From contig WRAW01000008.1 of NCBI GenBank assembly GCA_009780015.1, positions 1 through 52,361 of the forward strand: a DNA stretch of 52,361 bases, in the 5' to 3' direction. Positions within the stretch are counted from its first letter, which is position 1. Each line of letters opens with the position of its first letter. Below, one piece after another: positions 20,757 through 26,386 of this stretch. This stretch comes from Defluviitaleaceae bacterium. GTDB lineage: Bacteria > Bacillota > Clostridia > Lachnospirales > WRAA01. A model generated the notes under the pieces. The model saw only the letters and a list, made by a program, of their open reading frames with translations, ran no database searches and was not told the origin of the DNA. The translations under genes and the position numbers were made by a program.

Positions 20757-21359
20757 TTATATTTTTACAAAGTGGTTTGCGCCATGCTTACATATTGGGC
20801 AGATAAAATCCTGCGGCAGAGTTTCACCTTCAAGCTCGTAATTGCAAATATTGCAGCGATAGCCCTTTTTCTGAGTACTCTGCGGCTTGGGTTTAATATG
20901 CTGCTGATAATATGAATAGGTAACGCTTTCAGCCTTGCTGAAAACCTCGGCGTTTGTAATATCTGCCCTGAACATTGTGTGAGTGCCGAAATCAATAGTT
21001 TGCGTGACTTGAAATGAGATATACGAGTTAGTGTGTTCCGATAAATAAGCAACGCCGTTGCCGCTTCTTGAAAACCCATTGAAATCGGCGAATTTGTCAA
21101 CATCCCTGCCGGACTGGTATCCAAAGCGTTTAAATATTTCAAACGGAACCTCTGTCGTCAGCAGCGAAATGTTAAATTTATTTGTACGTGCGATGACATC
21201 GTGAGTATAGTTGCTTTTGCTGACCGTAATAACGCCGACAAGCGGATCCTCCGTTACTTGCAGCAGTGTGTTGATTATACATCCCGTATCTTTATTGCCG
21301 TCATTTGCCGTTAAAACATAGAGCCCATACCCTATTTTAAACAACGCCGCTTTATCCAT
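20757..21359 (-). CDS. Flavin reductase-rubredoxin fusion (high-molecular-weight rubredoxin type)
   Basis: 200 residues from the ATG at 21359 with GGAGAG at good spacing. Residues 1 to about 150 are a flavin-reductase/FMN-binding domain (KIGYGLYVLTA, GCIINTLLQVTEDPLVGVIT). Residues about 163-200 are a complete rubredoxin with paired Cys motifs (YRCNICNYELEG and FICPICKHGA). The arrangement matches the high-molecular-weight rubredoxin (Hrb) known from acetogens, which hands electrons from a reduced donor to oxygen- or NO-reducing flavoproteins. Here it lies between pirin and zwf, near rubrerythrin and superoxide reductase, both rubredoxin-dependent. No FprA-type flavodiiron partner is in the window. 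Confidence 0.88.
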   Translation of the reverse strand: MDKAALFKIGYGLYVLTANDGNKDTGCIINTLLQVTEDPLVGVITVSKSNYTHDVIARTNKFNISLLTTEVPFEIFKRFGYQSGRDVDKFADFNGFSRSGNGVAYLSEHTNSYISFQVTQTIDFGTHTMFRADITNAEVFSKAESVTYSYYQQHIKPKPQSTQKKGYRCNICNYELEGETLPQDFICPICKHGANHFVKI

Positions 21360-21458
21360 CAATACCACTCTCCATGAAATTTTTCCACAGCAATCATAAC
21401 ATTCCGTTCAGTCAATAGCAAGCTGAGATTTCATCAAGTGTGGATTTATATATATTTT

Positions 21459-22297: not shown

Positions 22298-23824
22298 CTA
22301 ATTAACAGTATTGACCATTAATTTAAAATTTTCCTTTGTAACTCCGCAAACAGGGCAAATGAAGTCGTCAGGTAAATCTCCCTCGTGTTCATAGTTGCAA
22401 ACAATACAGAGATGCTTCACGGCGTTGGAAAGCGCCTTCTCAACAATGCCCTTGGGGCCAAGGTCATTGCTGCGGCTGTAAAAGCCGGTGTGAAGCATAC
22501 GTTCGGCTACCGGGCTAAGCGGCTTATCGTACTGCTCTTTATACACCGCTATGATGTCCGGGTTGTCGTGGCTAAAACGCAGCGTCATGTCGCTGTCCTT
22601 CTTGAAAAGAGCCGCTATGCGCGCTTTGCGGATGTCGTCGGACATTGGTACGATTGTCTTGGGCTGTCCTCCGCCGCCAATGCAGCCGCCCCTGCAGGCC
22701 ATGACCTCCATAAAGTCGAAGTCGCGCTTTCCCGCGGCTACATCTTCCAGCATCTTCTTGGCGTTGTCGATGCCGTGTACAACCGCTACGCGCACAGGGG
22801 TCCCGGCAATGTCTACCGTTGCGCTGCGGATGCCGTTCATGCCTCGAAGCTCGCGCTTGTTAAGGAAATCGCCGGAGGGATTTTCGCCGGTCACATAATA
22901 ATACGCGCTTCTGGCCGCGGCTTCCATTACGCCTCCGGTGTTGCCGAAGATAACGCCTGCGCCGGAAGCGGCGCCCATCAAGCCGTCATAATTGCTGTCC
23001 TGCAGGGCGTCGAAGTCGACGCCTTCCTCTCTGAGCCACTTGGCAAGCTCCCTGGTGGTCATGACGTGATCCATGTCCCGCATATCCGGTATGCCAAGCT
23101 CCTTGCCCGCGTCGCACATTTCTTCGCGGCGTATCTCAAACTTCTTGGCGGTGCACGGTGTAACCGCGACATTTACGATCTTCCTGGGGTCTATATTCTG
23201 CTTCTTGGCGAAGTAGGTCTTCACGGTCGGGCCTTGCATTCCGATAGGGCTTTTTACGCTGGAGACGTGCGGCAGCATATCCGGGAAGAAGGTTTCCACA
23301 AACTTTACCCACGCGGGGCAGCAGCTTGTAAACTGAGGCAGCGGCTTGGACTTGTTCACAAGCCTGTCAACCAGCTCGGAGGCTTCTTCCGTGATGGTCA
23401 GGTCGGCGGCGAAGTTGGTGTCCAGAACATAGTCCGCGCCCAGCGCACGCAGAGCCGCCACCACTTTTCCCTCTACGAAGGTTCCAGGCTCAAGCCCGAA
23501 TTCCTCTCCAAGACCAACCCTAACCGATGGAGACGTGTTGAAGATTACAATCTTGTCGGGATCTTTTATGGCTTCTTTGATGTCGGGATATTCATAGCGT
23601 TCGGTGATCGAGTTTGGCGGGCACACATTGGCGCATTGGCCGCAATGGACACAAATCGGAAGGTCGCCGGTACTTTCCAGATCATAAAGCCTTCCTACCG
23701 CGATATCGGTTTCGCATACGCGCCTGCAAGCGCCGCATTTGATGCAGAGCTCTTCGTGACGCATTATGGCGGGATTATTTGGGTCAATAGGTATACGAAT
23801 ATCAATAAACGAATGGATGCTCAT
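22298..23824 (-). CDS. [FeFe] hydrogenase with C-terminal rubredoxin domain
   Basis: 508 residues from the ATG at 23824, eight bases behind AAAGGAG; the ORF-track start seven codons earlier is a TTG without a site. An N-terminal ferredoxin domain has two [4Fe-4S] motifs (CIKCGACRRVC, CVHCGQCANVC). The H-cluster domain keeps all three signatures: TSCCPAWVKF (second Cys is the proton-transfer residue), TPCTAKKFE and MACRGGCIGGGGQP. The last 40 residues are a full rubredoxin (LCIVCNYEHEG, FICPVCGVTKENF). The enzyme interconverts protons and H2 in the cytoplasm. A fused rubredoxin suggests exchange with rubrerythrin, superoxide reductase or the flavoprotein-rubredoxin encoded alongside. A separate HydEFG maturase set is not in the window. 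Confidence 0.93.
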   Translation of the reverse strand: MSIHSFIDIRIPIDPNNPAIMRHEELCIKCGACRRVCETDIAVGRLYDLESTGDLPICVHCGQCANVCPPNSITERYEYPDIKEAIKDPDKIVIFNTSPSVRVGLGEEFGLEPGTFVEGKVVAALRALGADYVLDTNFAADLTITEEASELVDRLVNKSKPLPQFTSCCPAWVKFVETFFPDMLPHVSSVKSPIGMQGPTVKTYFAKKQNIDPRKIVNVAVTPCTAKKFEIRREEMCDAGKELGIPDMRDMDHVMTTRELAKWLREEGVDFDALQDSNYDGLMGAASGAGVIFGNTGGVMEAAARSAYYYVTGENPSGDFLNKRELRGMNGIRSATVDIAGTPVRVAVVHGIDNAKKMLEDVAAGKRDFDFMEVMACRGGCIGGGGQPKTIVPMSDDIRKARIAALFKKDSDMTLRFSHDNPDIIAVYKEQYDKPLSPVAERMLHTGFYSRSNDLGPKGIVEKALSNAVKHLCIVCNYEHEGDLPDDFICPVCGVTKENFKLMVNTVN

Positions 23825-23857
23825 AGACAGCGCTCCTTTAACCAAGCGATATAATCA

Positions 23858-23901
23858 AAGCACGACAGGTAAATCATACTGCTTATTTACCTGCCGTGCT
23901 T
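23858..23901 (-). promoter_or_regulatory. Hairpin in the hydA leader
   Basis: AAGCACGACAGGTAAAT pairs with ATTTACCTGCCGTGCTT (one G-U) around 10 bases, 34 bases ahead of the hydA start. In the minus-strand transcript it would form a 17-bp stem followed by CTTTGATT. It could be an attenuator for hydA or the end of the upstream transcript. Confidence 0.55.
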
Positions 23902-23940
23902 GTTGGCACAAATTATAAATTAGAATTTGTATTCAATACA

Positions 23941-24324
23941 CTGGGGTGTGTCGACAATAGATTTTTCGGAATCTTTTTGGTCGATTATCTGCCACTCTTC
24001 GTCGGTTCCTCCTAGGGCGTGTTTTCAAACCCCATTTGGGCGTAATTTTGGTCAATTTTTCGCTGGACGTTGTCAGCGCCTCCTCTTGCGCTGGCGCTCC
24101 AGATGCTAAACGTGTGCCACCGGCACACAGCATCCTAGCAGAATCATGCCATTATGCGTCGTCGGCGCTTCCTAGCCCAGCAAAAAATTGCCTCAAAACT
24201 TCACCCAAAGCGGGTTTGAAAACACACCCTAGCGTACCACTGCGGGTACGCGGCGTCGTTACCTTCTCGATTGGCGAAAATCGCCTCAAAAATCTTCTCG
24301 AAAAACTATTGTCGACACACACTA
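23941..24324. mobile_element. MITE-like element G (GGTGTGTCGACAATAG ends), interrupted by another
   Basis: The left end GGTGTGTCGACAATAG and its reverse complement at the right bound a copy of the element also seen at 40346-40506: the flanks GCCACTCTTCGTCGG and CGTACCACTGCGGGTACGCG and the arm CCTCAAAAATCTTCTCGAAA agree almost base for base. A second element (24016-24228) splits it at the CTAG of its core. It fills the gap between hydA and ferritin. Confidence 0.8.
24016..24228. mobile_element. MITE-like element nested in element G (GGGYGTGTTTTCAAACC ends)
   Basis: 213 bases bounded by GGGCGTGTTTTCAAACCC and its near-perfect reverse complement, with CTAG directly outside both ends as target duplication. 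Removing it and one CTAG restores the continuous core of element G. The interior has its own hairpin (GTGTGCCACCGGCACAC) and a GCGTCGTCGGCGCTTCCTAG stretch related to the shared core. No transposase ORF. Confidence 0.8.
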
Positions 24325-24337
24325 GCAGAGTCTGGAT

Positions 24338-24850
24338 TTACTGCGCCGGAAATGGGTCTACAAAAACCCTTGCTCCCAGTTCATTATCGAGAGCCAGCAG
24401 CATACCTTTGTTTTCGCCGATGAATCTAAGCTTATCCAGGATATCCGTTGCGCTGGCCTCTTCCTCGACCTGCTCGTTTACAAACCACATCATAAATTGA
24501 TAACAGGCATGATCCGATTCCTGCATAGCAATGGTAGCAATGTTGTTGATGCTCTGAGTGACTTTTTGCTCATGCTCAAGAACCATTCCGAACATTTCAG
24601 GGACATCCGCAAAAGAAGTGGGGGGAAGATCGATGGCTGCAAAGGCCGGGGCGGCGCCTCGCTCTAAAATATATTGATAGATGCGCGTTCCATGAGCCAT
24701 TTCTTCCTGAGCTTGTATAAACAGCCAGTTTGCGATGCCTTTTAGTCCCATTTGATCGGCTGAGGCCGACATGGCAAGATACAGATACGCCGAATAGTAT
24801 TCGGCATTTACCTGATTGCTCAATGCGCCCAGTAATTTTTCACGTAACAT
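24338..24850 (-). CDS. Non-haem ferritin
   Basis: 170 residues, the normal length for FtnA-type ferritins. The four-helix ferroxidase residues are visible in NQVNAEYYSAYLYLAMS (Glu and Tyr), AQEEMAHGTRIYQYI (Glu-Glu and His) and the later Glu/Gln pair in NEQVEEEA. It stores iron as ferric mineral and removes Fe(II) that would feed Fenton chemistry. The ATG has AAGGAG upstream and the gene follows the superoxide reductase gene by 12 bases, so it is the last gene of the perR-rbr-dfx-ftn run. Confidence 0.94.
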   Translation of the reverse strand: MLREKLLGALSNQVNAEYYSAYLYLAMSASADQMGLKGIANWLFIQAQEEMAHGTRIYQYILERGAAPAFAAIDLPPTSFADVPEMFGMVLEHEQKVTQSINNIATIAMQESDHACYQFMMWFVNEQVEEEASATDILDKLRFIGENKGMLLALDNELGARVFVDPFPAQ

Positions 24851-24862
24851 AGCTAATCTCCT

Positions 24863-25240
24863 TTAACGGACTTCGGTTTTCCACAGACCGTGGAGATTAC
24901 AGTATGCGTAAACCTCTAAAGATTTGTCTCCGGTACAGCAGAACTCGGCTTCGGGGGATTCGCCAACGGCAAGGTTTACCCGTTGACCGCCTTTTTCTGT
25001 CTTAACATAGATAAAGTCGATATAGTGTTCCTCCACCATGGGGTGCAAAACGCTTCCGACGCTTACGCTAAGGCCGTGTTCAGTCTTTTTTACGTCGGGA
25101 AGATGCTTTTCCTGGCTGGCCTCAACGGTGTTCGGCACAAGAAGGGTCATGCCCTTGCCGCAGCAGGCCAGAGGGCCGCCTTTGTCTTTTACCATTCCTA
25201 CGATATTGCCGCAGATATCACAAATAAAAAACTTTGCCAT
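24863..25240 (-). CDS. dfx: Desulfoferrodoxin (superoxide reductase, 2Fe type)
   Basis: 125 residues. The N-terminal desulforedoxin domain binds one iron through CDICGN and ACCGK. The catalytic domain keeps EKHLPDV, LHPMVEEHYI and CNLHGLW, the His4Cys site with the Glu-Lys pair that reduces superoxide to peroxide without releasing O2. Electrons come from rubredoxin. The gene lies 11 bases behind rubrerythrin and 12 before ferritin, the classic anaerobe combination in which rubrerythrin removes the peroxide formed. Confidence 0.96.
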   Translation of the reverse strand: MAKFFICDICGNIVGMVKDKGGPLACCGKGMTLLVPNTVEASQEKHLPDVKKTEHGLSVSVGSVLHPMVEEHYIDFIYVKTEKGGQRVNLAVGESPEAEFCCTGDKSLEVYAYCNLHGLWKTEVR

Positions 25241-25251
25241 GTTCTTCCTCC

Positions 25252-25794
25252 TTAATAGTTGATAACACGCAGTTCGAAATATGCCTGAGGATAGTCACAT
25301 ACCGCACAAAGGCTTGGCGCGGAGTTCGCGTCCACAATATGGCCGCAGTTTCTGCATATCCACACAGATTTTTCCGTCTTGCTGAAGACTTGTTTGTTGT
25401 TTACATTGTCAAGGAGCTTGAGATATCTTTCTTCATGATCCTTTTCAATATCAGCAACGCCTTGGAATAGGAATGCAAGTTTGTCAAAGCCTTCCTCTTT
25501 GGCTTCTTCAGCCATTCGCTTGTACATGCATGTCCATTCTTCGTTTTCACCTGCCGCAGCCGCTTTCAAGTTTGCGTCCGTCGAGGGGAATTCCCCGCCG
25601 CAAAGAAACTTAAACCAAAGCTTAGCGTGCTCTTTTTCGTTGTTGGCGGTTTCTTCAAATATTGCGGCAATTTGTTCGCAGCCTTCACTCTTAGCCTTGT
25701 CCGCGAAGTATGTATACTTGTTGCGAGCCATAGACTCCCCTGCAAAGGCTTCCCATAAGTTCTTTTCCGTTTTTGTTCCCTTTAAATCCGGCAT
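25252..25794 (-). CDS. rbr: Rubrerythrin
   Basis: 180 residues from the ATG at 25794 behind GAGGAGGAA; the ORF-track version adds 18 untranslated codons. The ferritin-like di-iron domain ([40 protein letters not shown]) is followed by a C-terminal rubredoxin ([10 protein letters not shown] and [13 protein letters not shown]). It reduces hydrogen peroxide to water with electrons from rubredoxin or a reductase. It is preceded by the PerR-like gene, about 60 bases upstream, and followed closely by dfx. Confidence 0.96.
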
Positions 25795-25854
25795 AACGTG
25801 TTCCTCCTCAAAGATTATATTTTTTAAGGCTTGTGGCCTATAAAACAAAATGAA

Positions 25855-26262
25855 TTAAATTTCTTCGGGGGTGGTCTTTTTGGCGTCAGTACAGTTCGAG
25901 CATACGCCAAAGAAATCTATCTCGTGCCTATTGGTCTTAAAGCCGTATTTATTCATGATAATATCAGCGAACTTATCATCGCAGTCTATCTCTACATCGA
26001 AAATTCCTCCGCAAACTTCGCAGATAAAATGATAATGAAAGCCAGTCTTTTTGTCATACCGAACCACGCCATCAATAACGATTTGCGAAATAACACCATC
26101 ATCTACGAGCTGGCGCAAATTGCGGTAAATGGTTGATTTGCCGACGATAGGGTGCTTTTTCTGAATTTCAAGATACAGTTCCTCTGCCGACAGGTGCTTA
26201 CCGAGGGATTTTATGGTATCCAAGATAATTTGACGCTGCAAAGTGCTGCGCTTCGTACTCAT
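25855..26262 (-). CDS. Fur-family regulator, PerR-like
   Basis: 135 residues. A winged-helix DNA-binding half (GKSTIYRNLRQLVDDGVISQ) is followed by the dimerisation half with RYDKKTGFHYHFICEVCGG and GVCSNC. The two CxxC pairs form the structural zinc site. His residues and an Asp in the YDKKTGFHYH segment match the regulatory metal site of PerR, whose oxidation by peroxide releases DNA. Position at the head of rubrerythrin, superoxide reductase and ferritin genes supports PerR rather than Fur. The promoter region carries a perfect dyad over the -10 box, so autoregulation is likely. No recognised site lies in front of rbr itself. Confidence 0.88.
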   Translation of the reverse strand: MSTKRSTLQRQIILDTIKSLGKHLSAEELYLEIQKKHPIVGKSTIYRNLRQLVDDGVISQIVIDGVVRYDKKTGFHYHFICEVCGGIFDVEIDCDDKFADIIMNKYGFKTNRHEIDFFGVCSNCTDAKKTTPEEI

Positions 26263-26339: not shown

Positions 26340-26386
26340 ATTCTCATTTGCATAATAATAATAAATGAGAATCACAATCCTGTCAA
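26340..26386 (-). promoter_or_regulatory. Promoter with overlapping PerR/Fur-type dyad
   Basis: On the minus strand TTGACA (26386-26381), 17-base spacer and TATTAT (26363-26358) form a good sigma-A promoter. A perfect inverted repeat, ATTCTCATTT-N13-AAATGAGAAT (26340-26372), covers the -10 box and part of the spacer. The AT-rich dyad with TGAGAAT arms resembles Fur/PerR operators. It would control perR and the stress genes behind it. Confidence 0.72.

Follow-up and report, generated by a model that had tools for sequence, protein, structure and literature searches.

A rubredoxin-tailed [FeFe]-hydrogenase of the HydR branch lies near a perR-rbr-dfx-ftn gene run in a gut-type anaerobe

Introduction

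Which partner does a hydrogenase serve when its chain ends in a rubredoxin, and what does its place near genes for oxidative-stress proteins say about its role? The 52,361-nt contig analyzed here (hereafter the window; WRAW01000008.1 of assembly GCA_009780015.1), from a Defluviitaleaceae bacterium that is a gut-type anaerobe, encodes an [FeFe]-hydrogenase with a C-terminal rubredoxin-like domain (HydA-Rd). A preliminary description proposed that this tail links H2 to rubrerythrin and superoxide reductase in an H2-fuelled oxygen defence. The idea as such is not new, since the fused enzyme of Clostridium perfringens, CperHydR, was shown biochemically in 2025 to be an H2-dependent H2O2 reductase (PMC11926857). 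Such a chimera had been predicted by Calusinska et al. 2010, according to the citing passage in PMC11926857, and a rubredoxin-rubrerythrin-rubredoxin domain sub-class of [FeFe]-hydrogenases is listed in PMC6984386. These fused proteins (HydR) have the layout HydA-Rd-Rbr-Rd, with a diiron rubrerythrin (Rbr) and a second rubredoxin on the same chain. In them, oxidation of H2 at the H-cluster powers the reduction of H2O2 at the diiron site.

Results

Domain structure of HydA-Rd

The gene occupies the coordinates first assigned to it, to which we add the minus strand, and encodes 508 amino acids with the following features:

22298-23824, minus strand: HydA-Rd, [FeFe]-hydrogenase with a C-terminal rubredoxin-like domain (open reading frame and profile matches)
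23603-23767, minus strand: two [4Fe-4S] ferredoxin-like cluster sites, residues 20-74 (Cys 27/30/33/37 and 58/61/64/68)
22670-23554, minus strand: H-cluster domain Fe_hyd_lg_C, residues 91-385 (303.5 bits; L2 motif TPCTAKKFE)
22472-22639, minus strand: small-subunit-like segment Fe_hyd_SSU, residues 396-451 (59.6 bits)
22322-22408, minus strand: rubredoxin-like domain RUBY_RBDX, residues 473-501 (29.6 bits, cut-off 26.5)

All three H-cluster motifs are intact (L1 TSCCPAW, residues 166-172; L2 TPCTAKKFE, 222-230; L3 EVMACRGGCIGGGGQP, 373-388), and together with the Cys ligands they place the protein among the group A [FeFe]-hydrogenases; TIGR02512 is matched with 461 bits against a cut-off of 406. 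The assignment as an [FeFe]-hydrogenase with complete H-cluster residues and a C-terminal rubredoxin is thus borne out by the motifs, the profile scores and the match of the tail. The host can be expected to make the H-cluster, because HydG is confirmed elsewhere in the genome (603.7 bits, G000:C56) and HydF- and HydE-like open reading frames, named from sequence with no profile score, adjoin it.

The tail, earlier called a complete rubredoxin, does have all four ligands (Cys 473/476/490/493, CxxC-13-CxxC) and the fold in an AlphaFold model, but it is of the short rubrerythrin type rather than the classical one. The classical Rubredoxin profile PF00301 covers its second half only and scores just below threshold (22.2 versus 23). 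The model, built from 28 relatives, has a mean pLDDT of 88, with about 80-87 in the tail; the best Foldseek matches to it are hydrogenases only, none of which aligns over the tail. As in HydR, the rubredoxin follows straight after the HydA/SSU part. The chain, which stops at 22298, has neither a diiron rubrerythrin domain nor a second rubredoxin. An assembly frameshift hiding a rubrerythrin past this stop was considered and rejected, since none of the frames in the 137 bp before the downstream pirin gene encodes one.

The L2 motif of HydA-Rd is exactly that of CperHydR as printed (TPCTAKKFE), with TPCTAKKYE given for CpII, and the extreme bias of CperHydR toward H2 oxidation is tied to this CpII-like motif (PMC11926857). 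The bifurcating HydA of the same genome carries an MPC-type motif, MPCLAKKHE. This genome also holds a long bifurcating-type HydABC cluster with a hydrogenase-like protein in a 583-aa open frame (L117, G000:C15, 3975-17317).

Relatives fused to rubrerythrin

Relatives of about 680-722 aa do not end at this rubredoxin but go on into a whole rubrerythrin. Over HydA-Rd these single-chain HydR proteins are 55-63% identical to the window protein. In about ten of them the first rubredoxin, which acts as the linker, matches the window tail in register, which excludes a chance origin of the tail. In a same-order sample of 392 genomes, nine HydA-Rd-Rbr-Rd matches were full-length and a further two ran off contig ends; examples of the layout measure 703 aa (L006, G031) and, from a Lachnospiraceae metagenome-assembled genome found in a scan of named genomes, 697 aa (L035). 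Many other relatives are HydA-only. One genome, G358, holds both a full HydR and a free-standing Rd-Rbr-Rd of the HydR-domain lineage that lacks the hydrogenase part (L133, G358:C25, 143-892). A second structure model, made for the full HydR (P0002), reached a pTM of 0.63 and was left out because of this low confidence.

Hydrogenases with a C-terminal rubredoxin were thus mostly fused onward to rubrerythrin; HydA-Rd alone is rare. Roughly 1,180 genome searches yielded three such genes including that of the window, and none of 399 genomes of the phylum added another. The protein from genome G219 (505 aa) stops right after its rubredoxin. The one closest to the window (L098/L110, G695:C35, 1080-2603) has a frameshift inside the rubredoxin, through sequencing error or real decay; the motif resumes in the shifted frame up to the stop, and the next gene begins less than 200 bp beyond it.

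Phylogeny of the hydrogenase and rubrerythrin parts

In a tree computed on the HydA part without the tail, the branch that holds all HydR and HydA-Rd proteins is set apart from the outgroup (100/100). The window and G695 proteins are sisters (100/99), and the G219 protein joins two HydR proteins (100/100). Nested among the HydR proteins are also HydA-only forms, for instance those from Butyricicoccus and G326. A single clade of HydA-Rd is rejected (AU test, p = 1.4e-5), as is one of all rubredoxin-bearing hydrogenases (p = 1.9e-5), so HydA-Rd has at least two independent origins. Fusion, truncation and loss have thus occurred repeatedly in this branch. A clade of HydR, HydA-Rd and the nested HydA-only forms is compatible with the data (p = 0.18), so the window and G695 proteins may stem from a HydR that lost its rubrerythrin or from a pre-fusion form. 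By its L2 motif and its grouping in the HydR/CpII-like branch, the window protein reads as a HydR without the catalytic rubrerythrin part.

The rubrerythrin encoded nearby could be the missing half of a HydR split into two genes. This is not supported: it falls outside the clade of HydR rubrerythrin domains (AU p = 0.024), and its fit as a partner of HydA-Rd therefore cannot be assumed. A clade made up of the HydR domains by themselves fails the test too (p = 0.006), because the free Rd-Rbr-Rd protein of G358 nests among them.

Gene neighbourhood and control sequences

Upstream of hydA, on the same strand, lie ftn, dfx, rbr and a gene for a PerR-like regulator:

25855-26262, minus strand: Fur-family regulator, PerR-like (Asp in CGGIFD at the PerR/Fur-diagnostic position)
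25252-25848, minus strand: rubrerythrin rbr (diiron EKEH/EKDH motifs and a C-terminal rubredoxin; RuberyRbr 238 bits, cut-off 200)
24863-25240, minus strand: desulfoferrodoxin/superoxide reductase dfx, a possible second acceptor (profile match)
24338-24850, minus strand: ferritin ftn (profile match)
20757-21368, minus strand: flavin reductase-rubredoxin, HRb type (profile match)

The rbr gene, whose likely start Met is at 25794, lies about 1.4 kb upstream of hydA, and a second rubrerythrin is encoded elsewhere in the genome. Downstream of hydA follow pirin, the flavin reductase-rubredoxin and G6PD, the last named from sequence. The flavin reductase-rubredoxin carries the same short rubredoxin type as the HydA-Rd tail and may be a second donor to rubrerythrin.

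The rubrerythrin and superoxide reductase genes had been described as lying next to the hydrogenase gene. They are near it and on its strand, but ftn and a repeat of about 385 bp intervene. Conservation of the rbr/dfx neighbourhood had been set beforehand as a test of the idea, and the relatives do not show it: wherever the flanks of hydA-Rd or hydR were examined, rbr and dfx lie close by in the window alone. Nor did a HydA-Dfx fusion turn up, the known fusions being to rubrerythrin alone.

The control sequences and the repeat are as follows:

26386-26358, minus strand: sigma-70-like promoter TTGACA-17-TATTAT of the perR-rbr-dfx-ftn run (from sequence)
26340-26372, minus strand: perfect 10-nt inverted repeat ATTCTCATTT/AAATGAGAAT over this promoter, a candidate Fur/PerR operator
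23941-24325, no strand assigned: nested MITE-like repeat between ftn and hydA (outer arms 23941-23979/24287-24325)
23908-23930, minus strand: 11-1-11 palindrome ACAAATTCTAA-T-TTATAATTTGT upstream of hydA, in a candidate hydA control region
23858-23901, minus strand: 17-bp hairpin upstream of hydA (RNA fold of 23824-23945, z = -3.5)

The repeat lies within the 513-bp gap between ftn and hydA and is nested: a second element, at about 24012-24232, splits an outer one whose inverted ends are 39 nt long. It is dispersed across the genome, with 77 matches on dozens of contigs. Since it recurs so widely in this one assembly, a chance linkage of contigs in the metagenome-assembled genome is unlikely. 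The palindrome and hairpin (23858-23930) are a candidate control region of hydA itself, possibly an operator, attenuator or terminator. As they stand between the repeat and hydA, the gene may have its own promoter; given this and the repeat-bearing gap, co-transcription of ftn and hydA is no more than a possibility.

PerR-like regulators near hydrogenase genes

The PerR-like gene is the only FUR gene found in the window's incomplete assembly. Three of 25 other genomes also have one within 1 kb of the hydrogenase, next to a HydA-Rd (G219), a HydR (G031) and a HydA-only form (G326); at the observed density of FUR matches (63 in 26 genomes, 0.91 per Mb), chance would place 0.046 of them this close across the 25 genomes (Poisson P = 1.5e-5). 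In G084 the distance is 3 kb. The copy beside hydR in G031 has an in-frame stop that leaves 97 aa (L084, G031:C1, 4110-4448). Asp at a diagnostic position separates PerR from Fur, and it is present in all four hydrogenase-linked proteins (window, G219, G326 and G031). None of these reaches the NCBIfam PerR cut-off, and B. subtilis-type PerR boxes gave three matches, against 2.3 by chance. Runs of perR and reverse rubrerythrin(-rubrerythrin) recur in same-order relatives (L136, L137, L138, L140 and L141). In several relatives perR adjoins rubrerythrin genes without hydA, so the genes in the window look like an oxidative-stress run of this kind with a hydrogenase gene added.

Discussion

The HydA-Rd of the window is genuine and its features cohere: it represents a rare form, in two pieces, of an H2-driven peroxide reductase that is already known. 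Most likely it passes electrons from H2 through its rubredoxin to a separate rubrerythrin, and possibly to the superoxide reductase; we infer both transfers. We consider it probable, though well short of certain, that the two proteins form a two-piece H2-dependent peroxide reductase, in which an uptake hydrogenase donates via rubredoxin to a free-standing rubrerythrin. HydA-Rd would then be an H2-uptake enzyme that belongs to the HydR/CpII-like branch and has retained HydR's first rubredoxin but no rubrerythrin. Its H-cluster would split H2, and the electrons would reach the tail rubredoxin by way of both [4Fe-4S] clusters; the tail would dock on the free-standing rubrerythrin, and the latter would turn H2O2 into water. 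All electron-transfer steps would be downhill by textbook potentials. The two-piece enzyme would probably be induced under peroxide stress by the adjacent PerR-like regulator. The path from H2 through rubredoxin to rubrerythrin is strongly supported because relatives continue from this very rubredoxin into rubrerythrin within one polypeptide. For the proposed oxygen defence, the rubrerythrin route is therefore backed by the fused relatives and by CperHydR (PMC11926857), whereas what speaks for the superoxide reductase route is gene proximity.

The main rival reading takes the tail to be a vestige: an ancestral HydR would have shed its rubrerythrin, leaving a hydrogenase that simply recycles H2 into ferredoxin, as is thought for CpII. 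The repeated loss of rubrerythrin, and even of rubredoxin, in this branch means that the tail could be such a leftover. The two or more origins of HydA-Rd (AU p = 1.4e-5), the HydA-only forms nested inside the HydR branch, the frameshifted tail of G695 and the lack of a nearby rbr beside the G219 gene all fit this reading. Yet the window tail keeps its four Cys and its fold despite a diverged HydA part, the gene adjoins perR-rbr-dfx-ftn, and the G219 HydA-Rd too is beside a PerR-like gene; on balance we regard a vestige as unlikely. Rubredoxin is an established donor to superoxide reductase in anaerobes, and this role, with dfx in the same gene run, would also suit a tail that acts as a general donor whose main partner is desulfoferrodoxin, or desulfoferrodoxin and rubrerythrin together, so that H2 drives the removal of both superoxide and peroxide. 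That hydA lies near dfx in the window and in no relative examined, and that the fusions seen point to rubrerythrin alone, makes this improbable. Least credible, and very improbable in our view, is an ordinary H2-evolving or H2-sensing hydrogenase with a regulatory tail and no part in oxygen defence: other HydA-type enzymes do bifurcation in this cell, which leaves room for a specialized role, but the L2 motif and phylogeny point to the uptake-biased CpII/HydR group, and the C-terminal Cys motif is that of a rubredoxin, not the Cx2Cx4Cx16C of HydS/M2e (PMC6984386).

A broader version of the donor reading is possible but doubtful, namely that HydA-Rd is the center of a soluble, two-piece H2 antioxidant hub that serves both free rubrerythrin and superoxide reductase, with gut H2 clearing peroxide and superoxide. 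The fusion in HydR would in that case be just one layout among several that can replace one another (HydA, HydA-Rd, HydA-Rd-Rbr-Rd and free Rd-Rbr-Rd).

H2-driven peroxide reduction is already published for the one-chain enzyme; the HydA-Rd layout and its place beside perR-rbr-dfx-ftn are new. Should the tail pass its electrons to a separate rubrerythrin, defence against peroxide with H2 would be possible without a chimera, and genomes with a TPCTAKKFE-type hydrogenase and a rubrerythrin may have such a defence where no fusion is visible. As a natural HydR minus rubrerythrin, HydA-Rd could help to trace the uptake bias of CperHydR and its 400-mV overpotential shift to HydA, rubredoxin or the diiron site, and it ties the H2 abundant in the gut to the oxygen tolerance of strict anaerobes.

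Comparison with known systems

HydR (CperHydR; the Rd-Rbr-Rd sub-class in the Calusinska/Land nomenclature) shares with the window protein two [4Fe-4S] clusters, L2 TPCTAKKFE, a short rubredoxin and the same HydA branch; it differs in carrying a diiron rubrerythrin and a second rubredoxin on the chain, where the window encodes a rubrerythrin of another lineage nearby. Hydrogenase II of C. pasteurianum (CpII), likened here by motif alone, has a TPC-type L2 linked to H2-oxidation bias (PMC11926857), whereas the C-terminal rubredoxin belongs to the window protein. Sensory HydS/M2e hydrogenases (Tam-HydA) resemble it in an M2 core with a C-terminal four-Cys segment, but that segment reads Cx2Cx4Cx16C (PMC6984386) against CxxC-13-CxxC. 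Systems that drive rubrerythrin with NAD(P)H or flavin (NROR/Rd/Rbr; flavin reductase-rubredoxin) likewise supply it from a rubredoxin-level donor; in the window, by contrast, the electron source would be H2.
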